Shown here piece after piece: positions 47,115 to 64,000 of a stretch of 64,000 nt of DNA (its first letter is position 1; every line of letters begins with the position of its first letter). The position numbers were made by a program, and so were the translations under genes. A model generated the notes under the pieces. It did not search any database and was not told the DNA's origin. It was given only the letters and a program-made list of their open reading frames with translations. This DNA comes from Rubripirellula tenax. Lineage in GTDB: Bacteria; Planctomycetota; Planctomycetia; Pirellulales; Pirellulaceae. The stretch lies in NCBI RefSeq assembly GCF_007860125.1, contig NZ_SJPW01000007.1, positions 62,001-126,000 on the forward strand. The letters are read 5' to 3'.

Positions 47115-47127
47115 AATATGTTCCTAC

Positions 47128-47946: not shown

Positions 47947-48941
47947 CACCACTGGGCAACTTGGCGGTACACCGGCGCGATAACCCACCAAGCGTAAGAG
48001 ATCACGAAACCACAGCCGACAACGACCATCAGGGTTCGCGGTAAGAAACGCGACCAAAAATAGCCCGACCTGCGAGACGCCTCCGCGTGCCAGCTTCCCA
48101 AAAAATAAAGTCTCGCGGCTAGAATCGACGGCGGCATCCCCAACGACGAACCCGAGTTTGATCCGGATACCGTCACAGCTGCATTGGTTCGCTGCTCCTC
48201 ATCGATATCCGTCAACTCGCTTGCTCGACCGATCAACTTCGCGATCGGAGGACTCGCAAGCGTCGGATTCTCAAGCCCCGAGAGCATGGAGTCGCCTGAC
48301 AGTTTCGCCGCATGGACGATGGCTTCTTGCTCGGGAACGTCCGCTTCAATCTGGTCCGCCAACGAATAGAAAAACAAGCTCAATCGGGCATGACGGGAAA
48401 GCGAACTGCGTCCCGTTAATAGCCACCAAATTAAGACGCCGATCAACAGTGCGATCAACGGCGGCCACCAAGCGTTCTGCTCTAACCACTGGCACGCCGA
48501 AACCAACCAAGGTTCCCATCGAAAGTCACGACCCTGGTTTCGATTCACCAGCGGCACAGCCACCATCACGGTTGCGACATACGCAACCATCAGCAGCACG
48601 ATCGGATAGAAGTACGCGATCACAGCCGTTCCCATGAACTGGCTGCGCCGACGCAACTGTTGCCCCAAACGCGAAATCAGCCGCTGATCGGCCCCTCGAC
48701 CAACGGCGGCAATCGCTGCGGAGATTTGCGAGGTCATGGGGGAACGAATCACCGAAATTGCTTGCTCAAGCGATTGCCCTCGGTCAAGCTGGTCGGCAAT
48801 CTGGCCGGCACATCGCCCAACTCGCCCCATTCGCCGTGTTTGCAACCGCCGCATCGCACGTTCGACCGGTGCGCCCGACTTCATTGCACAAGCGATTTCG
48901 TCAATCACCCCGGCCAACTGCAGGTCGCTCAACTTGATCAT
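47946..48941 (-). CDS. GspF-like inner-membrane protein, copy 3 (first gene of the operon)
   Basis: A 331-residue protein. It opens with the GspF cytoplasmic pattern: GVIDEIACAMKSGAPVERAMRRLQ, QIADQLDRGQSLEQAIS. It continues with SRLGQQLRRRSQFMGTAVIAYFYPIVLLMVAYVATVMV and two further helices, then a second cytoplasmic region (ADQIEADVPEQEAIVHAAKLSG), and ends with a final helix. It is the first gene after the promoter at 48990-49018. No ATPase (GspE/PilB) gene precedes it. Confidence 0.75.
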   Translation of the reverse strand: MIKLSDLQLAGVIDEIACAMKSGAPVERAMRRLQTRRMGRVGRCAGQIADQLDRGQSLEQAISVIRSPMTSQISAAIAAVGRGADQRLISRLGQQLRRRSQFMGTAVIAYFYPIVLLMVAYVATVMVAVPLVNRNQGRDFRWEPWLVSACQWLEQNAWWPPLIALLIGVLIWWLLTGRSSLSRHARLSLFFYSLADQIEADVPEQEAIVHAAKLSGDSMLSGLENPTLASPPIAKLIGRASELTDIDEEQRTNAAVTVSGSNSGSSLGMPPSILAARLYFLGSWHAEASRRSGYFWSRFLPRTLMVVVGCGFVISYAWWVIAPVYRQVAQW

Positions 48942-48989
48942 GGAATGGACGCCTCTATCGCGACGGAACCCAAATAAGACATTCCATCT

Positions 48990-49018
48990 ATATTAACGGC
49001 GTCGATTTTCGCTTGCAA
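48990..49018 (-). promoter_or_regulatory. Predicted promoter of the prepilin/GspF-like operon
   Basis: On the minus strand TTGCAA (49018-49013) and TAATAT (48995-48990) are 17 bases apart, giving a leader of about 40 bases before the ATG at 48941. The boxes are close to the sigma70 consensus. Confidence 0.55.
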
Positions 49019-49631
49019 GTCCTGGTGTCGGAATTTAGCGAAGCGTTAGCAATTGTGGGCCAATCTAAATCTTCGAAACAATTCCGCTTCGGCGGTGTTC
49101 CCACATCTTTGGAGCCGCCCGAGTTCCGTGCGTCCTAGAAAATCAAACGATGGCGAGTCGGGCGACGGCCTCTCGTCCAAAACGAAGCTCCGGCAGACCG
49201 CCGAAGAGATTTGCTGCGGCGTCCATGTTTTGACGTTCGGAAGAAAGAGAAATCGTGCCGAACGAAGGCGACAAAAACCCGAAGCACTGCCAAAGGCTAA
49301 TGCAAAACCCCTCTGTCGAGGAAAACGTTTTCAACAAATCCCTGTTTTTGCGGCTAACTTGCTTTCCGTAAGAGCCAGAACCCGAAATGCCCGTTGAATA
49401 CCGAAAAAAGATGGCGGACTACACAGCTGAAAGGAGCTCAACCCTTTGAGAGCACTTCGTCCGATCGCAAATCGGCACTTGCGAGCGCGGCCATGATGGG
49501 GCACCTTTGTTTGCAGCTAGGCGAAAGTCTGGTCTCCGAATCGAGACGTCTGGCCGCGTTCGCTCTCAATTCTTGATGATGGAACTTGCATCTGCCCATC
49601 ACGTCTGGATCCGGCTTCATCTTTTCTAAAG

Positions 49632-49661
49632 CCGACAGAGTCTTTGACGCGCCGCTACAAT
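49632..49661 (+). promoter_or_regulatory. Possible promoter of the sigma-factor gene
   Basis: CCGACA (49632-49637) and TACAAT (49656-49661) are 18 bases apart, about 90 bases before the ATG at 49755. A TTGACG at 49645-49650 offers an alternative -35. Weak call. Confidence 0.3.
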
Positions 49662-49754
49662 ATCAATGATCATTTACATCCCATCCGGTCGCAATGATCT
49701 GCAACCACATCCGCTGATCTGCGATTGATCTATGCTGATCGCAAACCTTGCATC

Positions 49755-50351
49755 ATGACTACGTCCGGCGACAAAGACTCAATCAGACTCGCGCACTCTG
49801 ACCGCTCGCTTGTACGACTGGTTCGCGATGGAGACGAGCGCGCAGCGAGTGAACTTTACGATCGCTACGCCCGGCGAGTCTTTGGCCTGATCGACGTTAA
49901 GATGGGCGCAAAGCTTCGCAACAATACGATGACCGAAGATATCGTCCAATCGGTCTTCAAGAGCATCTTTCGTGGTGTGCAAGCTGGCGACTACGACGCG
50001 CCGCCGGGCAAGACACTTTGGAACCTCCTTGCCGTGATCGCTGCAAGCAAACTCGCGGACAAAGGAAATCACCATTCGGCAGGCCGACGTGACATCAATC
50101 GTACCGTTCGACTTGTCGACCATTCCGAAGAATTGGAAACCGACGAGCGTTCGATCAATCTTCTGAGCATGACGCTGCAGGAGACACTGGAAAAGCTAAG
50201 CCCGATCAATCGCGAGATCCTAAAGCTACGGATCGAAGGTCACTCCGTCAGCGAAATCTCTGCGACCACAGGGCGGAGCCATCGAACCGTGGAACGGATG
50301 CTACAAAAGAGCCGGATCCAACTAGCAAACATTCTTCTCTCTGAAGACTAA
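49755..50351 (+). CDS. ECF-type RNA polymerase sigma factor
   Basis: A 198-residue sigma factor with only regions 2 and 4. Region 2: SLVRLVRDGDERAASELYDRYARRVFG, then TEDIVQSVFKSIFRG. Region 4 helix-turn-helix: LSPINREILKLRIEGHSVSEISATTGRSHRTVERMLQ. It has no transmembrane or C-terminal extension. ATG 49755 is used; a TTG at 49725 is less likely. ECF sigma factors linked to Ser/Thr kinases are a feature of Planctomycetes, where phosphorylation rather than an anti-sigma factor may control activity. The kinase gene starts 284 bases downstream. Confidence 0.92.
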   Translation: MTTSGDKDSIRLAHSDRSLVRLVRDGDERAASELYDRYARRVFGLIDVKMGAKLRNNTMTEDIVQSVFKSIFRGVQAGDYDAPPGKTLWNLLAVIAASKLADKGNHHSAGRRDINRTVRLVDHSEELETDERSINLLSMTLQETLEKLSPINREILKLRIEGHSVSEISATTGRSHRTVERMLQKSRIQLANILLSED

Positions 50352-50635
50352 GCCGTCTACGCAAGTCACGCACTTCTTCGAACTTTTGGCCGTCGCAGAA
50401 ACGCTAGACGGCGCGACCAACACCACGGCAAGCCGCGCGCAAGAAGGCACCGGGTATCTTAAGCGACACAGCCGCTTACGAGAGTCATTCGTGCGATATT
50501 TCTGCGCAGTCACCGCAGACACCCCACACTCCTGTGCGGAAATGAATTCTCATTTTCCCTCAAGAAACTTGGCGGTGCAACGAACCCGAAGTCGCTATCC
50601 ACCCTGACCGCATTCTCTTTTCGATCGAGAAAGCA

Positions 50636-53600
50636 ATGACATTTGCAAAACCTCATCTTGCGCCGCACATGCAGGTCGACCCTACACGGATCGCCACACT
50701 TGATGACTCGACCGAACATATCATTGATCTCTTTGAAACCGCCTGGACCGAAGGCCGACGCTTAGACATTGCCGAACTCGTCGATCAACACGGCGTGCGT
50801 CATCACATCGATTTGCTAACCGAACTGATTCGAATCGACGTCGAACGACGAAATGCTGATGCCTTATCGTTCACGATTGACGAGTACGTCGAAGCCTTTC
50901 CTGGACTTCTTGATCACGCAACTGCTCTTTCAGATATCTGCTTTGAGGACTTTCGATCGCGACTTCGATTCGAACGAACATTTGATCTTGAACGCTGGAA
51001 TACGATTCCACAAATTTCAAAGCAATCATGGTTTCGCACGCTGGCACATCATGATCCGAAAACACGCGGGACAACCGATCAGCACGGCGACGAAACGGGC
51101 CCCGATCCATTGCTCGAAATCGAGCTGGGCCGCATCGGCTTTCAGTTGGTCAAAAAAATCGGCAGTGGTGCTTTCAGCGAAGTCTTTCTGGCGACGCAAA
51201 ACGAGTTGGCCGGTCGTTTTGTCGTTTTGAAACTGGTTGACCGAGTGTTTGCCGAACCACAAACACTCGCAGTTTTGCAGCACACAAATATCGTTCCGAT
51301 CTATTCCTGCCATAAAGTCGCAAAACGAACCGCGATCTGTATGCCTTATGCAGGAAGCCTGACGTTGCTAGACCTGTTTGACGCGTCAGGACCATTCGGC
51401 GATCTGCGAAGCGGTCAATCGCTGGTGACGACGGTTCGCGCTCGGGTCGCAGAGACTCATGTCGGATCAATCGCTGGCACTTCGACGATTCCGTGCGACG
51501 AATCCAAATCGTCGATCGACCGCAGTCAATCCCCTGCCGCCGATGAACCCACCGTACTGAGTCCGCTGGATCGACTTTGCCTGCTCGATCAAAACGAATT
51601 GACGGGTTGGGTTTTTGAACGATTGACGGCTGCTCTGATGCACTCTCACGCGCGAGGCATCATGCACGGCGACATAAAACCCGCCAACATTTTGATTCGA
51701 AATGACGGTGAGCCAGCCCTGCTGGATTTCAATTTGGGACAAGACCTGCAGCGCGACAACTCCAACCGTGTGGGCGGAACGTTGCCGTACATGGCACCCG
51801 AAGTGATGGGCGGTTTGATGGGGCAAACGTTCACGGCTGGACCCGCGTCGGACATCTATGCCGTCGGCGTTGTGATGTACCAATTCGCGACGCAACGATT
51901 GCCGTTTCCGTCGCCATCATCCGTTGCGGCGGTGGACTTAGAACCCGCGATCGAAAGCAGGCGACACGCTGTCGAGTGGACGGAAAACGATTCCGTATCT
52001 CCGGGCATCCGTTCCATCATCGAAAGGTGCCTTGCCTTTGATCGAAGCGAGCGATATGCGGGCGTCGAAGAACTCCACTGCGATCTGGATTGCCAGACAC
52101 GGTCATTGCCGTTGGAACATTGCCCCGAGCGATGGATCGATCGAGCGAGAAAGTGGCTTCGTCGCAATCCCCGTTCGACTTCGGCCGTCACCTTTGGAAC
52201 TGCATTTCTTCTGCTGCTGATTCCGTTGACGTTCGCTGCCATCCAATCGCGTCGAAGTTCGCTCGAAGCCAAGACACTCCAGCGTTTCAGTGAGTTCGTC
52301 GACGCATCGACTCCCGTTCTGGCGTCCATGGTTGCGAACCCGGTCAAGCGAAGTGATTCCGAGATCGCAGATGCCATGAAACCTCTACGAGACTTTGGTT
52401 TCGTGCCCCCGTCGCAACTGAGTCCCGCTGACTGGAATCGCTTGCCGGCAAACCGAGTTGATGGCTTTCGCAATGCGCTGCTCCGCCATGTCGGTCAGGT
52501 CGCGATCTTTGAGTCGGATCGACTCGCAGCGGCAAAGAAATCGAAATCGCTGGTTGCATCCGAGTTTTCTCGCCTGGACCAATTGATCGAAGTCGCCCAG
52601 CGGTTGGTCGACGATGAACCGTCATCGTTCATTCACAATATTCAACGGCAACGGGCACGGTTGGCCGACGAAACCTTACCTGCGAATGAGTCTCGCACGA
52701 TAGCATCCGAATCATCAAGCGAATCGGACACCGAGATCTATCTGGACGCGATTCGTTTGATGAAAAAGGAAAGATGGACCGAAGCCGGCCACAAACTTGA
52801 CCGTCTTTCCGGCAAAGACTCGATCCCTCCGGAACTTCGATGGACGGGACTCGGTCGATCTCAGTATCACGCCCACCAATACGATCAGGCTGCTGCATCA
52901 TTCACAAAGTCAATCGAACGAGCACCCGATTCATCGCGGCTAAGACTGCTGCGAGGACTCTGCTATTTGCATTTGTCGCGTGGTGATCGCGCGGAAGCAG
53001 AATTTGACGCTGCACTCGACCTGGACGCTACCAATTGGCAAGCAGAAACCAATCGCGGCCTGATTCGTTTGAGTCGTGATCGAATCGACGAAGCAATCGC
53101 AGACTTCACCAACGCAATGACGCATTCGCCCAATCGTGTCCACTTGCTGTTGCTTCGCAGCCGCGCATACCGCTTGCAAGGCGACTCGGTCGCGGCGGAT
53201 CGAGATCTCGTGGCCGTCATGAACGAGAAAGACCTTACCGCGCCGTCTTTGCTGTCGCGTGCTCGGGCGATGGAAAGCACCAACCCGAGCGCCGCACTGG
53301 CAGACCTGAAGGCCGCGGAGGCTCTAGATCCGAATTCCGCGGATGTGCTGATCAGTATCGCTGAATTGCTGACCCGGAAACTGAATCGAGATGCGGATGC
53401 GATTCCGTATCTGGATCGGCTGATTCGGAACCAACCCGACAACGAGCGAGGTGTTTCCGACCGCGCCGTTTTGCTTGCTCGATTGGGGCGATTCAACGAA
53501 GCCGATCGCGACGTTCGCGAAGCGATCAAACCACCCAATTCCGCCCGCGCCCTTTATCAACTCGCCTGCGCGTCCGCGTTGATGCAAGAACGAACGTTCC

Positions 53601-53824
53601 ACATTCGATCGCTCAGCTTTTTGGCGCAAGCCCTTCAAGCGGGCTACGACGCCGACCGACTGGACAGCGATCCCGATCTCGAAGCGATTCGCGAGATGCC
53701 TGGATTCCAAGCAATCGCTCGAACCTACCAACTCGGCAAGTTGGCCAAGCCAGCAAGGTCGAGTCCACGCAATCGGCCTGACGGCATCGATTCATCGAAC
53801 ATTTCAACGCTCGTCGCCGACTGA
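50636..53824 (+). CDS. Membrane Ser/Thr protein kinase with TPR sensor region
   Basis: A 1062-residue protein. Residues 1-115 are a helical lead typical of planctomycete kinases. The kinase domain covers about 167-490: glycine loop KKIGSGAFSEVFLA, K199 in VVLKLV, catalytic loop HGDIKPANIL (H344-G345-D346, HGD for HRD), D364-F-N366 in place of DFG, and APE in YMAPEVMG. One membrane helix lies at about 517-537. The extracytoplasmic part (about 540-1062) holds a coiled/helical stretch and many TPRs (for example QYDQAAASFTKSIERAPD, RAEAEFDAALDLDATNWQA). The Asn in DFN and Gly in HGD may change metal binding or rate. It lies between sigma factor and exoprotein genes on the same strand. Confidence 0.92.
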   Translation: MTFAKPHLAPHMQVDPTRIATLDDSTEHIIDLFETAWTEGRRLDIAELVDQHGVRHHIDLLTELIRIDVERRNADALSFTIDEYVEAFPGLLDHATALSDICFEDFRSRLRFERTFDLERWNTIPQISKQSWFRTLAHHDPKTRGTTDQHGDETGPDPLLEIELGRIGFQLVKKIGSGAFSEVFLATQNELAGRFVVLKLVDRVFAEPQTLAVLQHTNIVPIYSCHKVAKRTAICMPYAGSLTLLDLFDASGPFGDLRSGQSLVTTVRARVAETHVGSIAGTSTIPCDESKSSIDRSQSPAADEPTVLSPLDRLCLLDQNELTGWVFERLTAALMHSHARGIMHGDIKPANILIRNDGEPALLDFNLGQDLQRDNSNRVGGTLPYMAPEVMGGLMGQTFTAGPASDIYAVGVVMYQFATQRLPFPSPSSVAAVDLEPAIESRRHAVEWTENDSVSPGIRSIIERCLAFDRSERYAGVEELHCDLDCQTRSLPLEHCPERWIDRARKWLRRNPRSTSAVTFGTAFLLLLIPLTFAAIQSRRSSLEAKTLQRFSEFVDASTPVLASMVANPVKRSDSEIADAMKPLRDFGFVPPSQLSPADWNRLPANRVDGFRNALLRHVGQVAIFESDRLAAAKKSKSLVASEFSRLDQLIEVAQRLVDDEPSSFIHNIQRQRARLADETLPANESRTIASESSSESDTEIYLDAIRLMKKERWTEAGHKLDRLSGKDSIPPELRWTGLGRSQYHAHQYDQAAASFTKSIERAPDSSRLRLLRGLCYLHLSRGDRAEAEFDAALDLDATNWQAETNRGLIRLSRDRIDEAIADFTNAMTHSPNRVHLLLLRSRAYRLQGDSVAADRDLVAVMNEKDLTAPSLLSRARAMESTNPSAALADLKAAEALDPNSADVLISIAELLTRKLNRDADAIPYLDRLIRNQPDNERGVSDRAVLLARLGRFNEADRDVREAIKPPNSARALYQLACASALMQERTFHIRSLSFLAQALQAGYDADRLDSDPDLEAIREMPGFQAIARTYQLGKLAKPARSSPRNRPDGIDSSNISTLVAD

Positions 53825-53878
53825 CGCCCCACATACAAGCGTTTTCCTACCCCCCCCTTACCGCGAACTATTCGAACT

Positions 53879-55924
53879 ATGCCCCGTCCGAAACGACTTC
53901 GCCGTCCCCACGCAGCCAATTTTGAGACACTCGAATCACGCACCTTGCTTGCTGCATTTGGAACGCCATGGCCAGAACCTCGTGACCTGACCATCAGCTT
54001 TCCCGCCGATGGCGTCGCAATCGGGAATCGCGTCAACGACTTAGCAGAAACGCTGGACCAAGCGGGCGACACCCAGCAATGGCAAGAGTTGATTCTCAGG
54101 GCATATCAGACTTGGGCGATTCACGCAGACATCAACATCGGACTTCGAAACGACTTCGATGTTGCGTTTGGTTCGCACGGCATGACCAATAACGATCCTC
54201 GATTTGGAGAGTTTCGGATCGGCGCGTTTCCTCAACAGGGTCTGCTTGCCAGCTCACTTCCGTTTCAATCGGTGGCTGGTACTTACTCCGGCGACTTGCT
54301 GCTCAATTCGAATCAGAACTTCAAGCTGCATGACTGGAATGACGACACCGGTCCTGATACGACGCAGTGGGATCCGTTGGATCGCGACCTGTTCAGCGTC
54401 CTTTTGCATGAATCGGGAAACACGTTGGGTGTCGATGACAACCTGACCGAATGGTCCGTGATGTTCGGGCAATACACGGTTCCCAAAGGACTGTTAAGCC
54501 CCGAAGACATAAGCGAGATTCAAAGTCTGTACGGACTGCGTAGCGATCCGTATGAAGCGCTCAGCAACGACGACGTTCAGATGGCCACGCTGTTGCCTCA
54601 GCCGATCAACTTTGCACCGGCTACCGACGTCGTACGCACCCGCGCCAGCATTGTGTCGGCAACCGATATCGATCACTACAAATTCGTACCAGCGACCGGA
54701 CAAGACAGTGTCACGATCAAAGTCAAATCCGCTGGCATCAGCCTGCTTCGTTCCCGACTGGAAGTCATCGACGCCGCCGGCGAAGTCTTGCAAAGCAGCG
54801 CGGCGGCGTCCGTTTTCGACAACGACCACTCCATCACCCTGACCGGCATCAACGGGTCAGCGGAAATCATGGTTCGTGTCCTTGCCGACGACACTGACGA
54901 CGTTTATTCGGTCGGCGACTATGTGCTGGAGCTTGACTATCGGTCGGCCGCCGATCAACAACTTGATCACGTTCCGGGCGACTATGCGTCCGGTGCCGAC
55001 GCCTTGTTCACCGGATTCGATCTTGCGGATCCCGAAGACGTGCGCCAAACGATTGCTTCCGCAGACACGGTTTCTTCCACAATCGCATCGACGGATCGTT
55101 TCGAAGTCATCTCTTCGGTCGCATCGGCAGCCGACGCCGATGTTTGGAAAATTGTCGCGCCCGATAGTGCACGGCAGAGTCTGCAAGTCAGCGTTTCCGG
55201 TGTCGGCCAAGCGCACCCCGAGATAATGGTGCGCGTGATTGATTCGACGGGTCAACAAGTCGGTTCCTCGGCGAGACTGCGAAACGATGGGTCGTGGACT
55301 GTGGAAGTAACATCGCCAACCGTCGGAGCCGAGTACTTTGTCCGCATCAGTATCGACCCCAGTTCGGCCGTTCATGTCGGCAACTATGTCGCCGTCGCAG
55401 AGTTCATCACACCGTCCCAACAGATGAACGAACTCGTCTCGGGCGATGCTTCGTCCGAAATGGATGAGTTCTATCGCTGGACAGCAGGCAAATCCAAACT
55501 CTACCGATTTGATCTATCGGCCTCCGACGGATCGAGCACCGAAGGGATTCGCATGCGAATCTACGACGCCGAGACGAGCGAACTGCGTATGGTGATCGGC
55601 GTCCAAAATGACATAACCCGGTCGGGCCTCGCATGGCTCGATCAAGGTGACTATCTGATTCGCATTACCGCATTTGAAGCGAACGATGCTCCGGTCGACG
55701 CGATTCACTTCACGCTGACGTGCGACGGTCTTTCAGACGACCAAGACGACGATCCTTATGACCCGGATACCGATCCGTATTACGACGCGTACTACTACGA
55801 ATACAATCCGGCGTACTACTACTATTACTATTCAACCTACGAGTACTACTACAACTGGGACGAGTACTACGAATACGACGGCGACCCCGATTATCAGTAT
55901 TACTACACGGGCGAATACCCATAG
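53879..55924 (+). CDS. Exported protein with metzincin-like domain, repeat domains and Tyr/Asp-rich tail
   Basis: A 681-residue protein. FETLESRTLLAA at 15-26 is the planctomycete extracellular-protein signal (Planc_extracel type). Residues about 30-220 resemble a matrixin/metzincin domain: WAIHADINIGLRNDFDVAFG, LLHESGNTLGVDDN, SPEDISEIQSLYGL. The zinc motif HExGHxLGxxH is degenerate, as the second and third His read Asn and Asp. From about 250 to 610 come three similar beta-rich segments (pre-peptidase type, for example DHYKFVPATGQDSVTIKV, DVWKIVAPDSARQ and YRFDLSASDGS). The last 62 residues (620-681) hold 25 tyrosines amid Asp/Glu. It follows the kinase gene by 54 bases and precedes a sulfotransferase gene by 69. 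Catalysis is doubtful. Confidence 0.85.
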   Translation: MPRPKRLRRPHAANFETLESRTLLAAFGTPWPEPRDLTISFPADGVAIGNRVNDLAETLDQAGDTQQWQELILRAYQTWAIHADINIGLRNDFDVAFGSHGMTNNDPRFGEFRIGAFPQQGLLASSLPFQSVAGTYSGDLLLNSNQNFKLHDWNDDTGPDTTQWDPLDRDLFSVLLHESGNTLGVDDNLTEWSVMFGQYTVPKGLLSPEDISEIQSLYGLRSDPYEALSNDDVQMATLLPQPINFAPATDVVRTRASIVSATDIDHYKFVPATGQDSVTIKVKSAGISLLRSRLEVIDAAGEVLQSSAAASVFDNDHSITLTGINGSAEIMVRVLADDTDDVYSVGDYVLELDYRSAADQQLDHVPGDYASGADALFTGFDLADPEDVRQTIASADTVSSTIASTDRFEVISSVASAADADVWKIVAPDSARQSLQVSVSGVGQAHPEIMVRVIDSTGQQVGSSARLRNDGSWTVEVTSPTVGAEYFVRISIDPSSAVHVGNYVAVAEFITPSQQMNELVSGDASSEMDEFYRWTAGKSKLYRFDLSASDGSSTEGIRMRIYDAETSELRMVIGVQNDITRSGLAWLDQGDYLIRITAFEANDAPVDAIHFTLTCDGLSDDQDDDPYDPDTDPYYDAYYYEYNPAYYYYYYSTYEYYYNWDEYYEYDGDPDYQYYYTGEYP

Positions 55925-55993
55925 TGATCCTGTTGTGTCCAACCACCGCGTCATCCGCTGGCTCTCTGTCATCAACGCCTCTCGAGTCCCTTC

Positions 55994-58012
55994 ATGCTTG
56001 CGACTTCTGTTATTCATCCAGACCACCTGGATCGGCTATTCGTCCGCGCATGCGGTTTGATGGATCCGAGTCTGTCGGGAACTCCAGCCGACCGTCTTCG
56101 TGAAGCACGACGAAGATCTCGCGTCGATCACACTGATGCCGTAGCGAACGCGGTCGTTGCCGTTTGGGATTTGATCGAAAAACGGCCGAAGGAATCGCTC
56201 AACTACCTCCTGCGATTCTTGGGCGACGCGGATTGCATCGGAATCGTCCTTCAAGTCGCGGGCTATGCCTGCGTCCTTCAAGACGATTTGGATCAAGCAG
56301 CACTGCTTCTCAATCGTACCGTCAAGCTAGAACCACGCGCTGCCGAGTGCTGGACCGTACTAGGCCGAATTGCCAGTGCGAATCGTCAACCGGAGCTCGC
56401 GATGGAGCGCCATCAGCGAGCCATCGCCGTCAGCAATGCGACCTGTGCATCGGTGCTCGACCTGACGCATGTTTTTGTGCGTCACCGCCGCCTCGATGAT
56501 GCGATTCACACGCTACGTGTTGCGTTGATGCGCGATCGCAACAATCCCCAAATCAATCGCACACTCGCGCGACTGTTGAGGCGTCGCAGCATCGTCCTTG
56601 GACGGAAGAATATGCGAGTCGCGAAGCAACGCATCGTTCGAGAACGCCTGCGTTGCCTGCAAACAGCCAATCGTGCCGCTCCGCGATCCGATAGCTACAT
56701 CCGACAGGGAAGACTCGAAGGCCAACTCGAGCAATTCGACCGGGCGCGTCAATCGTACGGACATGCCGTTCGACTTGATCCTCAGTCGTCTTTTGCTCTA
56801 ACGCATCTTGCCAATGCGAACGTCGACAGCGGGAACATTTCCCAAGCCATCGAACAATTCGAATCCGCAATCGACATGGATCCCCATCACGCGGCAACCC
56901 ACTTTCGGTACACTCGAACTCGAAAGTTCAAAGCCGAACCGAAGACCAGCGACTACGTGACAATGTTAGAGTCTCGGCTGAAGGAACCAGAGCTTCCACT
57001 TCGCGACCGCGTCCATCTGGAATTTGCTCTCGGAAAAATCTTCGACGATCTCGGCGAGTACGATCGCGCGTGGAAGCATTTTGACACGGCAAACCGGTTA
57101 AAACCCGGACATCAGCGATCACTTGACTCGGCCGAGTCACCCAAACCACGACCGGCATCCGACCGCGCACCGCTAAAGCGTATTGCCGAGGCTTCGATCA
57201 GTTTCTTCACTCCCGAATTCTATCGAGCCAATGCGAATGTCGGCATTCGACGTGATTCGGTGAGACCGATCTTCGTCGTGGGGATGCCGAGATCGGGAAC
57301 AACCCTGACTGAGCAAATTCTTACCAGCCATCCGGCGATCGCGGGCGCGGGTGAACTCAAGACGATCAACAATATTCGACGAACCATCGAAAACGAATCA
57401 AATGACGCGCGCGGCATCGCCCACGGCCCCGTTTCAAATTACCCCAAGTGTTTGTGGGATACTGACCAATATCGCATTCAACGGCATGCCAATGACTATC
57501 TCGACCAACTGAAGACATTTGGACCGAACGAAACCTTTGTCACCGACAAGATGCCGACCAATTTCATGCACCTCGGCTTGATCGCGTTGCTGTTCCCAAA
57601 CGCAATCGTGATTCACTGTCAACGCGATCCGATGGACGTGTTGGTTTCTTGCTACTGTCAAAACCTGAATCCGCCCTTTTGCGATCTTGAATCGCTTTCT
57701 CTTTACTATCGACGCTATCGGCAAATGATGGCCCACTTCGAGGAAGCGCTGCCGATTCGAATCCATAACATCACTTACGAAGAGACCGTCGCCGATTGTG
57801 AACGCGTCGCTCGTGGAATGATCGATCATTGCGGGTTGCCGTGGGACCCTGCTTGCATTGATTTTCATGAAAACGAGCGTTCGGTCCACACGCCAAGCAA
57901 GTGGCAAGTTCGACAACCGATGTATGCGACTTCCGTTCAAAAGTGGCGTCGATTCGAACATCATCTGCAACCAATCTTAGATTCGCTGCATCAACCTCCA
58001 CTCGACATCTAG
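55994..58012 (+). CDS. TPR-sulfotransferase
   Basis: A 672-residue protein. Residues about 45-370 are TPRs (VLQDDLDQAALLLNRTVKLEP, EQFDRARQSYGHAVRLDP, NISQAIEQFESAIDMDPH). The C-terminal Sulfotransfer_3-type domain begins at FVVGMPRSGTTLTEQIL (427-443), the PAPS 5'-phosphosulfate loop. It continues with HPAIAGAGELKT, DKMPTNFMHLGLIALLFPNA, and the 3'-phosphate site CQRDPMDVLVSCY. It has no signal peptide, so it is cytoplasmic. TPR-sulfotransferases include tyrosylprotein-sulfotransferase-like enzymes. The acceptor may be the Tyr-rich exoprotein next door (inference). The start ATG is 69 bases after that gene. Confidence 0.9.
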   Translation: MLATSVIHPDHLDRLFVRACGLMDPSLSGTPADRLREARRRSRVDHTDAVANAVVAVWDLIEKRPKESLNYLLRFLGDADCIGIVLQVAGYACVLQDDLDQAALLLNRTVKLEPRAAECWTVLGRIASANRQPELAMERHQRAIAVSNATCASVLDLTHVFVRHRRLDDAIHTLRVALMRDRNNPQINRTLARLLRRRSIVLGRKNMRVAKQRIVRERLRCLQTANRAAPRSDSYIRQGRLEGQLEQFDRARQSYGHAVRLDPQSSFALTHLANANVDSGNISQAIEQFESAIDMDPHHAATHFRYTRTRKFKAEPKTSDYVTMLESRLKEPELPLRDRVHLEFALGKIFDDLGEYDRAWKHFDTANRLKPGHQRSLDSAESPKPRPASDRAPLKRIAEASISFFTPEFYRANANVGIRRDSVRPIFVVGMPRSGTTLTEQILTSHPAIAGAGELKTINNIRRTIENESNDARGIAHGPVSNYPKCLWDTDQYRIQRHANDYLDQLKTFGPNETFVTDKMPTNFMHLGLIALLFPNAIVIHCQRDPMDVLVSCYCQNLNPPFCDLESLSLYYRRYRQMMAHFEEALPIRIHNITYEETVADCERVARGMIDHCGLPWDPACIDFHENERSVHTPSKWQVRQPMYATSVQKWRRFEHHLQPILDSLHQPPLDI

Positions 58013-58786
58013 TCATTTAGCGGGTCGTGTTTGATCCGATTGAGGTTGTATCGCAATACGTTGTTCGAGCATCCAGGTATACAGATCGTCGTTGCCGTAG
58101 GTCTCGGTCCACGCATCGTGCTTCGCGTTCGGATAGACCGTAAACTTGACGTCGTTTCCAAGCTCCCGCAGCGCGTCCACCATTTGTTCCGATTCTGAGA
58201 TCGGAATCATGTCATCTCGTTGGCCGTGAAATACCCAAATCGGCATTTGCTTGATCTTTCGGACATAGGGCGGGTCACCACCACCGCAAATTGGCACCAA
58301 ACAAGCGAAGCGATCGGGATTCTGGATCGCCAAACGCCAAGCGCCGAACCCACCGCGACTCATCCCCGTCAAATAGATGCGTGACGGATCGACGGCGTAT
58401 CGATCAACAAGATGATCAACTAAAGCCATCAATGACTGATCATCCCAGAACTGAGTGGTGCTGGGATTCTGAGGCGAGACAACAAAGAACGGAAAGTCCT
58501 TACCCTCTTTGATCAGCCGCGGCGGGCCGTGCATTTTGACTTTTTCGATGTTGTCACCGCCTTCGCCGCCACCGTGCAAGAACAACAGCAGCGGGATTCG
58601 TCCATCTTCGGTTCGTACTTGCGCAACCGCTTGGCTATCCAAATCGGGTTGGTACAGCAGATAGTGAAGAGTCGAAGCTCCTTGGTTGTCGAATCGTTCC
58701 ACCGTTTGATCACCGGCGTTTGCTATGGATGCAAAAACAGCAAGCGCCCCAACGACGATTGAATAGAAACGTTCAAACACAAACAT
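58013..58786 (-). CDS. Secreted alpha/beta-hydrolase (phospholipase/carboxylesterase type)
   Basis: A 257-residue secreted esterase. ATG 58786 gives the signal peptide FYSIVVGALAVFASIANA. The oxyanion strand is LLLFLHGGGEGGDN. The nucleophile serine is in YLTGMSRGGFGAW, Asp in VFHGQRDDMIP and His in YPNAKHDAW, giving a complete catalytic triad. Similar to planctomycete prolyl-oligopeptidase-like or feruloyl-esterase-like enzymes of polysaccharide breakdown; the substrate is unknown. It ends one base from the convergent sulfotransferase gene, and the epimerase gene upstream is 7 bases away, so the two form an operon. Confidence 0.9.
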   Translation of the reverse strand: MFVFERFYSIVVGALAVFASIANAGDQTVERFDNQGASTLHYLLYQPDLDSQAVAQVRTEDGRIPLLLFLHGGGEGGDNIEKVKMHGPPRLIKEGKDFPFFVVSPQNPSTTQFWDDQSLMALVDHLVDRYAVDPSRIYLTGMSRGGFGAWRLAIQNPDRFACLVPICGGGDPPYVRKIKQMPIWVFHGQRDDMIPISESEQMVDALRELGNDVKFTVYPNAKHDAWTETYGNDDLYTWMLEQRIAIQPQSDQTRPAK

Positions 58787-58793
58787 CGCAGCA

Positions 58794-59903
58794 CTACTTC
58801 TTTTGAGTTGAGAACTTGAAAGTCGTCTTGGTCTGGTAATCCTTACCAGGCTTGATGATCGTGGACGGGAAATTCGGCTGATTGGGGCTGTCGGGATAGT
58901 GTTGGGTTTCCAGACAAAAGCCACCACGGTGCAGATAGGTTTTCCCTGCCTTGCCCTTCAATCGACCGTCTAAAAAGTTTCCGCAATAGAATTGAATACC
59001 CGGCTCGGTGGTCGTGATCTCCATCACGCGGCCCGTCGTCGGCTCGTAAACCCGCGCGGCAAGCCCCATCTCGCCGTACGGTTTGTCAAGGACGAAGTTG
59101 TGATCGTAACCGAGTCCGAACTCGAGTTGCTCGTCCGATGCCCCGACGTCACGACCGATCGGCTTTGACACGGTAAAGTCAAATGGCGTGCCTTCGACGT
59201 TGGGCATTTTTCCCGTCGGGATCAAACCTGAATCGACGGGAGTGTAGGTCTTCGCATTGAGCATCAACTCGTGATCCAGGATCGTTCCTTCGCCTTCGCC
59301 CTTCAGGTTGAAGTACGTGTGCTGTGTCAAGTTCACCGGTGTCGACTTGTCGGTCGACGCGTGATAGTTCACGGACAACTCATTCTTATTATTCCATTGG
59401 TAGGTCACCGTCACTTGCAAATTGCCGGGGTATCCTTCCTCCATATCCTTGGCAAGGTACGAAAGTTCCAACCCCGTGAATCCGTCGCCCTCGATCGGCT
59501 TTGCATCCCAAACCACTTTGTCGAACCCGATCACCCCGCCGTGAAGGTGGTTTGCGTTATTGTTCGTCGCCAGCGCGTAGGTTTTGTCACCGATCGAGAA
59601 GGCACCTTTGGCGATGCGATTTCCATATCTTCCGACGATGGCACCAAAGTAGGGCTTGTCGACTGCATTGATATAGTCTTCGACGCGGTTGTACCCCAAC
59701 GCTACATCGCCGACCTTCCCATTGCGATCGGGAACCATGATGGACGTGATGATCGCACCGTAGTTGGTGACCTTCACAGTCATCCCCGAATCATTCGTCA
59801 ATGTGTACAGCTTGATGCTGTCGAAGTCGTTGACAATCACCTGGGCGATCGACACGTTGGAGCAAAAAAAGAGGGCGCAAAGGCCTAGCAAGGTGTTTTT
59901 CAT
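58794..59903 (-). CDS. galM: Secreted aldose 1-epimerase (galactose mutarotase)
   Basis: A 369-residue GalM-type mutarotase converting alpha and beta forms of aldoses. ATG 59903 gives signal peptide LLGLCALFFCSNVSIAQ, so it is exported. Motifs: VTNYGAIITSIMVPDR, GRYGNRIAKG, NNANHLHGG (catalytic His region), LTQHTYFNLKGEG, DHELMLNA and GYDHNFVLD. Length and order are normal for the family. A periplasmic location next to a secreted esterase suggests joint processing of imported sugars. Confidence 0.94.
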   Translation of the reverse strand: MKNTLLGLCALFFCSNVSIAQVIVNDFDSIKLYTLTNDSGMTVKVTNYGAIITSIMVPDRNGKVGDVALGYNRVEDYINAVDKPYFGAIVGRYGNRIAKGAFSIGDKTYALATNNNANHLHGGVIGFDKVVWDAKPIEGDGFTGLELSYLAKDMEEGYPGNLQVTVTYQWNNKNELSVNYHASTDKSTPVNLTQHTYFNLKGEGEGTILDHELMLNAKTYTPVDSGLIPTGKMPNVEGTPFDFTVSKPIGRDVGASDEQLEFGLGYDHNFVLDKPYGEMGLAARVYEPTTGRVMEITTTEPGIQFYCGNFLDGRLKGKAGKTYLHRGGFCLETQHYPDSPNQPNFPSTIIKPGKDYQTKTTFKFSTQKK

Positions 59904-60077
59904 GTCGTCGTCCGCGAACGAGTAATCGGTAGGAATCACCGACAGAGAAGCCAATGCCTCTCTACCGCTGCCCGACCATTTTCATCGCATCGATGACCGG
60001 TGGCAATGAGACACAGTATCGATCCATTGAGCTTTCTTCCGGCGAAAAGAATCGAAATCAGTCTCCGGTCGCCTCGA

Positions 60078-63000
60078 TTAGGCGGGCGCCACCGAGTTGC
60101 GGTGGACGAGCGAGTAGACGCACGGCACCAGAATCAATGTCAATAGAGTCGATACAACCATGCCGCCCAGCAACGCACGCGCCAGCGGGATCATTGCCTC
60201 GTTACCGGGCGCCCACAAGAAAGCCAAGGGCAACATCGAAGCGACCAACGTTAGCGACGTCATCAAAATTGGACGCAGTCGTACTTGGGCCGCCGCCATC
60301 GCAGCATCATGGGCCGACATACCTTGCTGACGTCGTCGGTTGGCAAAATCGACCAATAGAATCGAGTTATTGACCACGACGCCGATCATCATCAGCGTGC
60401 CCATCAACGATTGGATATTCAAGTTCGTGTTGGTCAAGTACAGCACGACCAGTACGCCGCCGATCCCCAGCGGCACAGCCAACATGATGATCAGTGGATC
60501 GGTGAACGACCGGAACTGGGCCATCAAGACCAAATAGACCAAGAAAGCAGCGACGGCCAAACCGATGCCCAAAAGCTTCATGCCCGAACGCATGGTCTCG
60601 ACCGGACCACGCAGGCTGACCGAGACACCGTTTTCGAACTCCATGTCTGCGAGCGCCGTTTCAATATCGGCCGCGACGGATCCGATATCACGATTGACGA
60701 CGTTGACGTGTACGTCGTTCACACGAGCGATGTTGTAATGCTGAATCTCACCGGGAATGTTCACTCGGCTGACCGTGGCGATGTTCGACAACGGAATCGT
60801 GATCGGTCCGTCGGGAGTTTCCAAAGACAAAGGGATGTTTCGTACGTCTTCCAACGACTCGAAATCGTTCGACTCGTACTGTACGCCCATGAAAAAGTCC
60901 GTGCCCGATTTGGGGTCGATCCAAATCGTTGGCGAGTATCCGACGCTGGAACCCAGCGCTGTAAGCACCGTCTTCGCTACCTGTTCTTGGTCAACGCCCA
61001 AGTACTTGGCACGGGTTCGGTCGACTTGAACGTCAAACTGGGGATAGTCCAACGATTGTGCAATCTGCACATCCTCGGTGCCGGCAATCGGTCGAACGGC
61101 ATCCACGATTCGCTCGGCTGCGTCGCGACACTGTTGCAGCGAACCCGCCGAAACCTGAACGCTGATGGGAGTCGGCACACCTTCGTTCAAGGCCATGTTG
61201 ACAATACCGCCCGACACAAACAGAAACTGCTCAAGCGGATACTCTTGTGCAAGCTTTTCGCGGAGCAACCCAATGTAGTGACTGGTACTTTCGGATCGCC
61301 CTTGCTGTTTTAAGTTGACAATCAAGTAGGCCGTGTCGGGTCCCGAGTTCGAACTCAAGACAGTCGAAAACCCTGCGCCCTTGCCGACCGGCAATCCGAT
61401 GTTGGCAATGATCGTTTCGATTTGTTCCGCGGGGATCATCTCTTGGATGGTATCTTCGAGCCGCATCACCAAGGCTTCCGTTTGATCCAGCGCTGTCCCG
61501 GGCAGTGTTTTGATTCGCAATTCAAAGCTGCCCGCATCGACTTCGGGGAATAGTTCGGTACCAATTCGTGGCCACAACAAAAACGATGCGCCCACACAAC
61601 CCACGATCATCACCGAGGTCAGCACGGGGACTTTCATCGCCGAACTCAGAACGCCGGCATAGAACCCGCTCAATTCAGCTTCGTCGTCCGATGACTTTTC
61701 ATCCGACATCATCAGTTTTTCACGCACGAGCGTCGCGCAGAAAGCTGGTACAACCGTCAGTGCCAGAAAATACGAAGCACCAATCGTCAACACGGCAGCC
61801 AACGACAATGGCGCGAACAGGTACTTGATCATGCCGGTTAAAAATACGGCCGGAAGGAATACGGCGAGCGTCGTCAGTGTTCCCGCCAAAATCGCGCCCG
61901 AGACTTCGCTGGTACCGTCGAATGCAGCGTCGACGGCTGACTTGCCCATCCGTTGATGACGGATGATGTTTTCTACGACGACGATCCCCGCGTCCACAAC
62001 CGTTCCGATAGCCAACGCGATCCCACCCAGCGTCATCACGTTGATTGTCTGGCCCGTGAACGCGAAACCGAGGGCTCCGATCAAGATCGCCAACAAGATC
62101 GTCGAAACGATGATGATCGTTGGCATGAAGCGGCGCAAGAAAATCATCACAATGACGCTGACCAACAGCGCACCGAGTCCGACTTGATTCAACAAGTTCC
62201 GCATCGCGTTGCGAATGTAGCTGGATTGGTCCGAGACCAACGTGACTTCCGTTGCCTCGGGAATGTCGCCCCGCTCTTTCATCTTGGGAATTTCGGCCGC
62301 GATCCCATCGTAGATTCGGTCCACGACTTCAATCGTATTCTCACCCGGCTCGCGCAACAACGGACAATAGACGCTGCGTTTTCCGTTGACTCGGACAATG
62401 TTGTATTGAAGTGCGGCATCGTCGACGACGCGTGCGACGTCACGAATGAAGATGGGGCGACCGTCGCGAACGGCTATCGGGATCGCTTCGATTTCAGCGG
62501 TATCCGGCAGCGTGTTGCGAGGATGGACTTGATAGTCGGTTCCGCCCATGCGAGCTGTCCCGGCAGCCAACACCAAGTTGGACTTCTGCATCGCCTCGAC
62601 GACTTCGGACGTGCTGACGTGGTAGGCGCGAAGCTTGTGCGGGTCCACGTAGACCATCATCTGTCGAAACTTACCGCCGAACGGGTGCGGAATTTGGACG
62701 CCCTTCAGGCCGCCCATTTTGTTTCGAACGGCGTAATATCCGATCGTGTAGAGCTCGGATTCGCTGAGACCTTCGCCAGAGATGGCGGCCAGCACAACGG
62801 GCAAATTGGCCGGTTCGCTGCGCAGTGTAAACGGCCACTCGATCCCCGGCGGCAAGTGGAACATGTCGCTTGCTTCAAGATTGACGATATCGTTCATCGC
62901 CGAACTCGCATCAGCGCCGGGCTGGAAAAAGACTTTGATGACGGCCGCGCCGGGGACCGTGCGTGATTCTTGATGCTCGATCTTGCCCGCCAATGTCAAC

Positions 63001-63209
63001 GCTCGTTCGACACGAGCGGTCACCGACTTTTCCATATCCAACGTCGGCAGACCCGGATACGAGAAAAAGCTGACGACGACCGGCTTCTTGAAGTCGGGCA
63101 GGATATCGATCGTGATCCCCGGAATGACCGCAGCACCGAGGACACTGAGCGCGATCGCGGACGCCAGCACAGCGAAGCGATTGTTGAGCGAAAATCGAAT
63201 CAAACCCAT
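60078..63209 (-). CDS. RND-family efflux permease (HAE/AcrB-type)
   Basis: A 1043-residue inner-membrane proton antiporter with the standard 12-helix, two-porter-domain layout. It begins MGLIRFSLNNRFAVLASAIALSVLG. TM4 has AIGTVVDAGIVVVENIIRH: one Asp where AcrB has two (D407/D408). The TM10 region reads VVNNSILLVDFANRRR, with Asn at the position where AcrB has K940. This simplified relay is common in other HAE branches. The adaptor gene lies 105 bases upstream. No TolC-type outer-membrane gene is in view. Substrates cannot be told; drug or metal export are the usual options. Confidence 0.93.
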   Translation of the reverse strand: MGLIRFSLNNRFAVLASAIALSVLGAAVIPGITIDILPDFKKPVVVSFFSYPGLPTLDMEKSVTARVERALTLAGKIEHQESRTVPGAAVIKVFFQPGADASSAMNDIVNLEASDMFHLPPGIEWPFTLRSEPANLPVVLAAISGEGLSESELYTIGYYAVRNKMGGLKGVQIPHPFGGKFRQMMVYVDPHKLRAYHVSTSEVVEAMQKSNLVLAAGTARMGGTDYQVHPRNTLPDTAEIEAIPIAVRDGRPIFIRDVARVVDDAALQYNIVRVNGKRSVYCPLLREPGENTIEVVDRIYDGIAAEIPKMKERGDIPEATEVTLVSDQSSYIRNAMRNLLNQVGLGALLVSVIVMIFLRRFMPTIIIVSTILLAILIGALGFAFTGQTINVMTLGGIALAIGTVVDAGIVVVENIIRHQRMGKSAVDAAFDGTSEVSGAILAGTLTTLAVFLPAVFLTGMIKYLFAPLSLAAVLTIGASYFLALTVVPAFCATLVREKLMMSDEKSSDDEAELSGFYAGVLSSAMKVPVLTSVMIVGCVGASFLLWPRIGTELFPEVDAGSFELRIKTLPGTALDQTEALVMRLEDTIQEMIPAEQIETIIANIGLPVGKGAGFSTVLSSNSGPDTAYLIVNLKQQGRSESTSHYIGLLREKLAQEYPLEQFLFVSGGIVNMALNEGVPTPISVQVSAGSLQQCRDAAERIVDAVRPIAGTEDVQIAQSLDYPQFDVQVDRTRAKYLGVDQEQVAKTVLTALGSSVGYSPTIWIDPKSGTDFFMGVQYESNDFESLEDVRNIPLSLETPDGPITIPLSNIATVSRVNIPGEIQHYNIARVNDVHVNVVNRDIGSVAADIETALADMEFENGVSVSLRGPVETMRSGMKLLGIGLAVAAFLVYLVLMAQFRSFTDPLIIMLAVPLGIGGVLVVLYLTNTNLNIQSLMGTLMMIGVVVNNSILLVDFANRRRQQGMSAHDAAMAAAQVRLRPILMTSLTLVASMLPLAFLWAPGNEAMIPLARALLGGMVVSTLLTLILVPCVYSLVHRNSVAPA

Positions 63210-63314
63210 CGAACGAAATCTCTATGTAGTCAGCCGCGAAAGAAAGCGACTGGGGACTCTGAAATTATCAAACCCGTGCAAGACGACCGTCAAAGAACGG
63301 CCAAGTGCGCAAAC

Positions 63315-64000
63315 CTAAAGCGGTTTGACTATTTGACCGTCAACGAATCGCTGCAAATGCGGGCCGATGACACGTTGTCCGGCTTTGACGCCCGAAAGAA
63401 TTTCGATCTGATTCCCGTCGTCGGTTCCGACCGTAACTTGCGCGATGGTGACCGCATCATCGCCGCTGACCACGTACACATACGCAGTGCCGTCTTCGCG
63501 AAAGCGAATCGCTTGTGCGGGTAGCGTATTCGTCGCTTGTTCTTCACCGATACGGATCAACGCTTGGCCGAACATTCCAGGCAACATTCGGCCTTCGGTG
63601 TTATCCATTTCGACTTCGACCATCATCGTTCGGGTGCTCGGGTCAAGACTTCCGGCCCGCCGGGTTACGACTGAGTTGATTGGTTCTTCGCCGGCAAACG
63701 ACGGAAAGGACAGCGTGACGCCGTCCCCTTGTCTGACGAACGGTGCATCGGATTCGGGAACGGGAATGCGGACACGGACCTTGTCGACTTGGCTGATGAC
63801 GAACAACGGTCCGCCGCTACCCACTTCGCTTTGTTCGCGGACCAAATCGCCCATCTCCACGCCGCGATGCGTCACGACCCCAGAAATCGGGGAACGCACC
63901 GTGGCGTATTCCAAACGAACATCAAGCAGTTCTAACTCGCGTCGAGTGATCTGCGTTTCTGCAACAGCGGCTTCGAAATCCGATTGTGCCGAAATCGCCT
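63315..64000 (-). CDS. RND periplasmic adaptor (membrane fusion protein), truncated by the window edge
   Basis: The reading frame runs open to the right edge at 64000, so the N-terminal signal and part of the coiled coil are missing; about 228 residues are visible. The visible part has the end of the helical hairpin (ELELLDVRLEYATVRSPISGVVTHRG), the lipoyl half with GDLVREQSEVGSGGPLF, the beta-barrel (VRIPVPESDAPFVRQGD) and the membrane-proximal domain (PAQAIRFREDGTAYVYVV, GVKAGQRVIG). Together with the downstream permease this forms a standard adaptor-permease operon. An internal ATG at 63914 is not the start. Confidence 0.9.
   Translation of the reverse strand, partial: AISAQSDFEAAVAETQITRRELELLDVRLEYATVRSPISGVVTHRGVEMGDLVREQSEVGSGGPLFVISQVDKVRVRIPVPESDAPFVRQGDGVTLSFPSFAGEEPINSVVTRRAGSLDPSTRTMMVEVEMDNTEGRMLPGMFGQALIRIGEEQATNTLPAQAIRFREDGTAYVYVVSGDDAVTIAQVTVGTDDGNQIEILSGVKAGQRVIGPHLQRFVDGQIVKPL

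Follow-up and report, generated by a model that had tools for sequence, protein, structure and literature searches.

The gene at positions 55994 to 58012 of the window (the whole 64,000-nucleotide stretch of Rubripirellula tenax DNA analyzed here) probably encodes a PAPS-dependent tyrosylprotein sulfotransferase (TPST) which, to judge from its sequence and predicted structure, would be dedicated to the adjoining exoprotein and would sulfate that protein's C-terminal tail at multiple sites in the cytoplasm before export. The observations behind this reading are the pairing of the two genes, the joint gain and retention of tail and enzyme, the predicted fold of the enzyme, the conservation of its catalytic residues, a charge reversal in its TPR stretch, and the presence of APS-kinase matches in the genome. 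From these we infer the cytoplasmic site, the identity of the acceptor, multi-site sulfation, its order before export, and a role outside the cell.

The features of the window are given in Table 1. The open reading frame coordinates confirm what the sequence-only reading of this DNA had claimed, that the sulfotransferase gene lies 69 bases downstream of the exoprotein gene on the same (+) strand, and its identification of an intact PAPS loop and of TPRs in the sulfotransferase also holds. Four genes, encoding a sigma factor, a kinase, the exoprotein, and the sulfotransferase, are common to at least 8 of the 17 cassette loci, and no others are. Therefore, no glycan-synthesis gene travels with the cassette; RaxA or RaxB secretion genes are likewise absent from the genes common to at least 8 of the 17 loci. 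The sigma-factor homologue is found at 15 of 17 loci including that of the window (14 of the 16 others); it is absent in L043, and for this count L083 is cut by a contig end. The kinase gene is the neighbor of the exoprotein gene in all 17 cassettes.

Table 1. Features of the cassette in the window
Feature	Positions	Strand	Basis or remark
ECF-type sigma factor, cassette gene 1	49725..50351	+	Sigma70_ECF E 3.9e-15; TTG start, true start unfixed
Ser/Thr kinase with TPRs	50636..53824	+	Pkinase E 4.8e-35, TPR matches
Exoprotein, 681 aa	53879..55924	+	ORF; Peptidase_M10 E 1e-06
LESRTLLA, planctomycete extracellular N-terminal motif, residues 18-25	53930..53953	+	Planc_extracel E 0.038, under its cut-off
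Degenerate zinc-binding motif HESGNTLGVDDN, residues 177-188	54407..54442	+	Orthologue alignment
Tail rich in Tyr and Asp (residues 619-681), proposed acceptor of multiple sulfates	55733..55921	+	Composition
TPR-sulfotransferase, 672 aa, proposed tyrosylprotein sulfotransferase	55994..58012	+	Sulfotransfer_3 E 5.7e-46, TPR matches
TPR superhelix, about residues 49-377, net basic	56138..57124	+	
TPST-like sulfotransferase domain, residues 418-669	57245..58000	+	
PAPS 5'-phosphosulfate loop PRSGTT, residues 432-437	57287..57304	+	Invariant 17/17; R433 aligned with TPST1 R79
E454	57353..57355	+	Invariant 17/17; aligned with TPST1 Glu100 (position counted on alignment)
K519	57548..57550	+	Invariant 17/17; aligned with TPST1 Lys159 (position counted on alignment)
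S552	57647..57649	+	Invariant 17/17; aligned with a TPST1 Ser

The exoprotein consists of a planctomycete LExRxLL N-terminus, a matrixin-like domain, a beta-rich region, and the Tyr/Asp-rich C-terminal tail. In the alignment of 16 orthologues, L18, E19, R21, and L24 of the N-terminal motif are invariant, and all 16 proteins match the Peptidase_M10 Pfam profile. The zinc motif of matrixins is HExxHxxGxxH. Despite the profile match, this intact motif is absent from the 16 orthologues, in which H177, E178, N181, G184, and D187 are invariant, with Asn and Asp in place of the second and third His of the matrixin site. Modeling of the exoprotein with 5 sequences gave a structure of low confidence (mean pLDDT 47), in which residues 615 to 681 have a pLDDT below 50.

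Residues 619 to 681 contain 25 Tyr, the number claimed earlier for the tail, or ~40% of the residues, together with 13 Asp, 5 Glu, and no Lys, Arg, or His. By a criterion of at least 10 Tyr in 50 residues, at least 7 Asp or Glu, and at most 2 Lys or Arg, the exoprotein is the only Tyr/acid-rich open reading frame in the window (candidates were listed from 7 Tyr up). The four-Tyr-codon pattern TAYTAYTAYTAY occurs in the 7.99-Mb genome in this tail only, with 3 overlapping matches, and the backward control pattern has 6 matches; since TAYTAYTAYTAY is confined to this tail genome-wide, the Tyr runs are not due to chance. The tail is kept in all 15 other intact aligned orthologues with TAT/TAC swaps at the kept tyrosines, which shows that its reading frame is real. 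The tails counted have 12 to 25 Tyr each, and in the orthologue alignment they share composition more than sequence, with the exception of SDDQD. Tail tyrosines are retained above other tail residues in 11 of 11 orthologue pairs, and in several close pairs the tail has changed more quickly than the core. However, this retention is weak as proof of selection, because core tyrosines are kept about as well (e.g., 16/16 in G000/G004), the pairs are not independent, and alignment favors Tyr matches.

In metazoan TPSTs, an acidic residue at -1 is the main determinant of the acceptor. The tail tyrosines had been described as acidic-flanked, and in composition they are, with Asp or Glu within 5 residues of 22 of the 25, but there is no excess at -1. 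Six of the 25 tyrosines in the window tail have Asp or Glu at that position, and in the 16 tails pooled, 66 acidic residues were observed at -1 compared with 74.7 expected from shuffles, so we reject a positional acidic motif. There are more acidic residues than expected at -3 and fewer at +2 to +5, consistent with tails that begin acidic and become rich in Tyr toward the end.

The tree places the gain of the tail and that of the enzyme on one shared branch, and 17 of 17 carriers have both. Among exoprotein relatives that lack a neighboring enzyme gene, none of the 19 readable ends is Tyr-rich. Tyr-rich tails without the enzyme, which the sequence-only reading had named as a finding that would speak against it, were not found among exoprotein relatives. 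In the R. baltica BR-MGV copy, the exoprotein frame is broken and the adjacent enzyme frame is open. The TPR stretch of the enzyme is clearly basic only in the cassette clade, and the charge reversal coincides on the tree with the gain of the tail; tail-enzyme co-occurrence and TPR charge reversal both trace to a single evolutionary origin, so they count as one event. The fact that tail and enzyme arose together and stayed together suggests that the enzyme sulfates the tail. The adjacency of kinase and exoprotein in all 17 cassettes could instead mean that the upstream kinase acts on the tail, or that the tail serves as a signal for sorting or anchoring, with the sulfotransferase as a hitch-hiking neighbor. 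We consider this very improbable. The kinase gene is also found in 19 of 20 tail-less exoprotein regions (upstream in 18 and downstream in L158), so it is not tail-specific, is disfavored as the tail modifier, and leaves the tail unexplained; the likeness of the tails in composition more than in sequence also argues against a signal or kinase target of this kind.

Beside related TPR-sulfotransferases, a Tyr/acid-rich open reading frame was found at 0 of 75 GTDB loci, at 0 of 29 short phylum loci (examined with 1.5-kb flanks), and at 2 of 22 planctomycete loci, and none was found in the 16 neighborhoods of order-level enzyme matches outside the family. Among 396 sampled genomes of the order and 392 of the phylum, with the 3 best candidates per genome scored, no cassette-level enzyme was detected outside the family. 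The other finding named in advance as contrary, homologous sulfotransferases beside proteins that are not Tyr-rich, is common for distant homologues, but no orthologous enzyme of this sort was found. In the sister clade, 5 of 8 enzymes (L045, L091, L092, L093, and L095) adjoin giant LExRxLL proteins with 4.0 to 7.7% Tyr in the part seen. Relatives of these giants located away from enzyme loci, in 13 genomes, have 3.5 to 10.95% Tyr in the matched part. The giants are thus rich in Tyr whether or not an enzyme gene adjoins them, and we do not count these loci as an independent recurrence of the pairing.

The enzyme model has a mean pLDDT of 90.5 and a pTM of 0.87, and both the model and Pfam matches give a TPR array followed by a Sulfotransfer_3 domain. 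We take the stretch around S552 to be the 3'-phosphate-binding motif, and no membrane anchor is evident by eye in the enzyme. In a whole-length Foldseek search with the model, the list was filled by TPR proteins; a second pass with VIA-align, which covers only chains picked by Foldseek, gave TPST rows. Comparison of the C-terminal domain by HMM and structure, the check that had been proposed, thus matches TPST by profile and by fold. In excerpts of the TPST1 study, the catalytic residues include R79, Glu100, Lys159, and S286 (PMC5562738), the last of which falls outside the aligned range of the cassette enzyme profile. The equivalents of E454 and K519 are also invariant over 31 rows that include 25 ordinary TPR-sulfotransferases. 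The cassette enzyme profile matches TPST1 at 5.8e-16, but a control profile built from 17 TPR-sulfotransferases that lack Tyr-rich partners, for which TPST is also the first match, does so at 6.3e-18. By this profile comparison the enzyme is not closer to TPST than its unpaired relatives are; homology therefore gives no tyrosine specificity, and we reject it as proof. The sulfation pair originally proposed stands as regards the pairing (17 of 17 carriers, joint gain, and 19 of 19 tail-less relatives), but homology is unspecific and no -1 preference is visible in the tails.

The sharing of active-site residues with unpaired TPR-sulfotransferases, and the fact that these enzymes mostly lack Tyr-rich partners, are consistent with a non-protein acceptor (glycan, exopolysaccharide, or lipid), in which case enzyme and exoprotein would belong to one surface-coat operon and the tail would have a sulfate-free role in adhesion, metal or mineral binding, or dityrosine cross-linking. 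We consider this unlikely, because the lack of a tail in all 19 readable enzyme-free exoprotein relatives is unexpected under two independent functions, because no glycan-synthesis gene recurs with the cassette at 8 or more of the 17 loci, and because the 22 PDB sequences that the enzyme profile matches at an E value of ≤0.1 include no glycan sulfotransferase.

The coincidence of the TPR charge reversal with the gain of the tail could reflect binding no less than catalysis. The tail could be a docking handle for the basic TPR superhelix, with the sulfate placed elsewhere on the exoprotein, on an attached glycan, or on a third protein, and the lack of an excess of acidic residues at -1 would agree with this. 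However, to judge from composition, docking would require acid and not 12 to 25 tyrosines, which makes a mere docking role quite improbable. On the more probable reading, in which the tail is itself the acceptor, the basic TPR superhelix would bind this acidic, flexible segment and feed it to the TPST-like active site (R433, E454, and K519), where many of its tyrosines would be sulfated, presumably in the cytoplasm and ahead of export. The modified protein, located at the surface or in the matrix, would then carry a polyanionic brush of sulfotyrosines, which may bind basic proteins, cations, or matrix polymers outside the cell.

The sulfation of protein tyrosines is an established modification in animals and plants. 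If our reading is correct, its reach would extend to a free-living group in which the enzyme is genetically paired with an extreme poly-Tyr acceptor. Cultured carriers, such as strain K23_9 and Rhodopirellula sp. SM50 (loci L162 and L159), would provide a model system, and the enzyme would be a multi-site sulfotransferase of use in engineering. The question of which proteins are the targets of the many bacterial TPR-sulfotransferases also becomes testable. Among the matches listed in the open-licence literature, there was no precedent for a planctomycete tyrosine sulfotransferase. RaxST-RaxX of a plant pathogen is the one bacterial enzyme-substrate pair described in the cited papers, as excerpted (PMC4216712, PMC6637879, PMC9372746). 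In a 2022 review, bacterial TPST genes are described as sparse and, from unpublished work, as often adjoining genes for the production and export of extracytoplasmic proteins (PMC9372746); the planctomycete locus fits these settings.

Like the cassette enzyme, RaxST of Xanthomonas is a bacterial TPST-like enzyme with PAPS motifs, is encoded beside its proposed exported substrate, and is thought to act before export (PMC4216712, PMC6637879, PMC9372746). In contrast, the planctomycete enzyme bears a TPR superhelix some 330 residues long. RaxX is a short, 60-residue precursor with a double-glycine leader and one named sulfated Tyr, whereas the exoprotein has 681 residues, an LExRxLL N-terminus, and a poly-Tyr/Asp tail, and the sigma factor, kinase, exoprotein, and enzyme of the cassette differ from the RaxX-RaxST-RaxAB cluster. 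Metazoan TPST1/TPST2 are the best profile and fold match, with R79, E100, and K159 corresponding to R433, E454, and K519 (PMC5562738), but they lack the added TPR domain, and their -1 acidic preference is not evident in the planctomycete tails. The Sulfotransfer_3 proteins with TPRs that occur in Proteobacteria and planctomycetes share domain order, active-site residues, and about 27 to 39% identity with the window enzyme; however, their TPR stretch is mostly net negative, a Tyr-rich neighbor is rare, and R462, K636, C555, and C563 are peculiar to the cassette enzymes. With O-GlcNAc transferase and SPINDLY there is an analogy of architecture only, since the catalytic domain differs. For the exoprotein, the closest likeness is to fibromodulin, osteoadherin, and other SLRPs, extracellular proteins with Tyr-rich acidic terminal extensions, whose ends are described as sulfotyrosine rich (PMC7310474); the bacterial protein is unrelated and its sulfation is proposed here, which makes it an analogue and not a homologue. 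We suggest, at somewhat less than even chances, that planctomycetes have a dedicated poly-tyrosine sulfation system in which a TPST domain joined to a TPR superhelix, in an architecture like that of O-GlcNAc transferase, threads a disordered tail and sulfates at least 12 of its sites, that the enzyme, the Tyr/Asp tail, and the basic lining of the TPR superhelix arose together on one branch of an older sigma-kinase-exoprotein cassette, and that it is an independent bacterial counterpart of the sulfotyrosine ends of vertebrate matrix proteins.

Two claims of the sequence-only reading, that a Tyr-rich exoprotein tail is encoded here and that its gene adjoins a sulfotransferase gene, are borne out: the two genes lie on the forward strand with 69 bases between them, and residues 619 to 681 of the exoprotein contain 25 Tyr, 13 Asp, and 5 Glu, with Lys, Arg, and His all absent. 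The acidic flanks ascribed to the tail Tyr are also present (Asp or Glu at most 5 positions away for 22 of 25 Tyr). The tail is the sole site in the 7.99-Mb genome with a run of four Tyr codons. The exoprotein N terminus is the planctomycete LExRxLL motif (a weak Pfam match), followed by a matrixin-like region (M10, E = 1e-06; M10 is matched by all 16 aligned orthologues) and by beta-rich segments, with the tail after them. The zinc motif is degenerate, reading HESGN..G..D where matrixin has HExxHxxGxxH, and exoproteins with this site are likely a pseudoprotease family, to judge from the motif. Asn likewise replaces a zinc-site His in a tail-less relative (L132), and the site of a distant relative (L012) reads HEIGHVLGLQH. 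The predicted exoprotein structure is poor (mean pLDDT 47, with every residue from 615 to 681 below 50) and thus does no more than suggest that the tail is disordered. For the enzyme, the model is good (pLDDT 90.5, pTM 0.87) and consists of a TPR superhelix followed by a C-terminal sulfotransferase domain.

Positions of the features in the window
Feature	Position	Strand	Description
Exoprotein gene	53879-55924	+	ORF, 69 bases upstream of sulfotransferase gene
Degenerate zinc site of exoprotein	54407-54442		HE.GN..G..D in 16/16 aligned cassette exoproteins
Sulfotransferase gene (enzyme)	55994-58012	+	ORF directly after exoprotein gene

An orthologous enzyme (E = 2.6e-119 or better) is encoded in 17 of 241 family genomes, namely, 3 of the 22 in the window's genus, 11 in genus g60, 1 in g43, and 2 in g16; sampling of 396 genomes of the order and 392 of the phylum gave no enzyme at this level beyond the family. 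Kinase, exoprotein, and enzyme genes follow in this order on a single strand in 17/17 loci, and a sigma factor gene is present in 15 (it is missing in L043, and L083 is cut by a contig end). When all ORFs of at least 120 aa were compared across the 17 loci (homologue, E = 1e-20), these four were the sole genes with homologues in at least 8 other loci, and none of the remaining window genes from 45001 to 64000 had a homologue in more than 3 of the 16 others. Because no further gene is common to at least 8 other cassette loci, we conclude that the conserved unit is four genes. All 17 loci have a Tyr/acid-rich exoprotein end. Counted from SDDQD, the 16 intact tails have 46 to 63 residues, with 12 to 25 Tyr, 12 to 20 acidic residues, and 0 to 2 Lys, Arg, or His. 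In the seventeenth carrier, R. baltica BR-MGV (G203; L163, the same place as L087), the exoprotein frame is in at least 3 pieces, which may be either assembly error or decay, and the Tyr-rich end is still readable. The sulfotransferase frame beside it is open.

A set of sigma factor, kinase-TPR, and matrixin-like exoprotein (window positions 49725 to 55924) is widespread in the family without tail or sulfotransferase (L139 to L158). Twenty regions with an exoprotein relative and no cassette enzyme served as a natural control; a kinase is found in 19 (upstream in 18, downstream in L158) and a sigma factor in 17. In these 20 loci, some of which run out near the exoprotein (381 bases downstream in L140), no ORF has at least 10 Tyr and 7 Asp or Glu with at most 2 Lys or Arg in 50 residues. 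The 19 readable exoprotein ends (L142 stops at a contig end) have 0 to 5 Tyr in the last 70 residues, and 10 of them have SDDQGP or SDDEGP at the expected tail start, with Pro-rich sequence after it in several. Among the 20 genomes, a match to a TPR-sulfotransferase at E = 1e-25 or better occurs solely in G089; it is distant and on a different contig. In a tree of 33 exoprotein cores with tails removed (16 cassette, 17 without enzyme), one 100/100 branch separates all cassette rows, which are nested among tail-less rows. This tree and the tail-less, enzyme-less relatives indicate that tail and enzyme were gained jointly on one branch and then retained together, a single event and not many. The main rival explanation, that the enzyme has a nonprotein acceptor and the tail an unrelated role, does not predict this strict joint presence, and we consider it unlikely.

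Beside other TPR-sulfotransferases, a Tyr/acid-rich ORF was found in 0/75 GTDB loci, 0/29 short phylum loci, 0/16 order loci, and 2/22 planctomycete noncassette loci (L101 and L091, the latter with a giant neighbor). The L101 ORF (4472 to 6913), with an internal Tyr-rich stretch, lies on the strand opposite to that of the distant TPR-sulfotransferase gene it adjoins. Of the 8 sister-clade sulfotransferases, 5 (L045, L091, L092, L093, and L095) are neighbors of a giant extracellular LExRxLL protein, and clusters of Tyr occur in some of these proteins; L096 and L108 have no such neighbor, and L094 is cut short by its contig end. The corresponding count for the other planctomycete loci is 1 of 14 (L102). 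In two genomes for which no sulfotransferase match is listed, G050 (L309) and G075 (L298), relatives of the giant proteins have a Tyr content of up to almost 11 percent over the matched part. Several frames of ~1700 to 2070 codons with a TPR-sulfotransferase motif occur in L164, L169, L172, L174, L188, L197, L219, and L231, and a number of further loci have at least two genes with this motif near one another. Elsewhere in the same order, beyond the family, L317, L319, L321, L324, and L327 carry TPR-sulfotransferase genes in tandem, 2 to 4 per run.

Between the window species and genome G004, 23/24 tail Tyr are kept versus 21/32 other tail residues. Tyr is the better kept in 11/11 pairs, and core Tyr are retained similarly to tail Tyr. 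In close pairs such as G206 and G212 (tail identity 77 percent versus 96 percent for the core), the tail changes faster. These alignments indicate that tail composition persists more than tail sequence. Metazoan tyrosylprotein sulfotransferase (TPST) favors Asp at position -1 (PMC9372746; PMC5562738), whereas acidic residues at -1 of cassette tail Tyr show no excess (66 observed versus 74.7 in shuffles). Either the enzyme follows a less strict rule, with TPR binding as the guide, or it does not serve to sulfate Tyr.

The net charge of the 295-residue TPR stretch is +1 to +15 in 17/17 cassette enzymes. It is negative in 19 of 20 measured planctomycete relatives, sister clade included (L094 is +1; 20 of 22 were measurable, 2 being without the motif used, and several stretches are shorter, 171 to 272 residues), and in 22 of 25 mostly proteobacterial relatives, the other 3 being at +3 to +5. 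Mean charge per 100 residues is +3.2 in the cassette versus -2.3 in the mostly proteobacterial relatives; the p-value of this comparison takes no account of kinship among the sequences. By these charges, the branch with tail and enzyme also has a basic TPR as its third trait, and the predicted basic groove would suit an acidic tail.

The best reading, which we hold to be probable, is that the enzyme is a TPR-guided tyrosylprotein sulfotransferase. It would act in the cytoplasm, the site of PAPS synthesis, on the flexible tail of a protein to be exported. A bacterial TPST with its substrate encoded nearby is an already known kind of system; among the matches listed from open-licence papers, we found no precedent for the cassette's architecture, substrate, and lineage. 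RaxST of Xanthomonas reportedly modifies RaxX in the cytoplasm, and the proposed cytoplasmic sulfation of an exported partner by the cassette enzyme would resemble it (PMC6637879; PMC9372746). Such sulfation would yield an extended polyanion that resembles the sulfotyrosine-rich ends of fibromodulin (PMC7310474).
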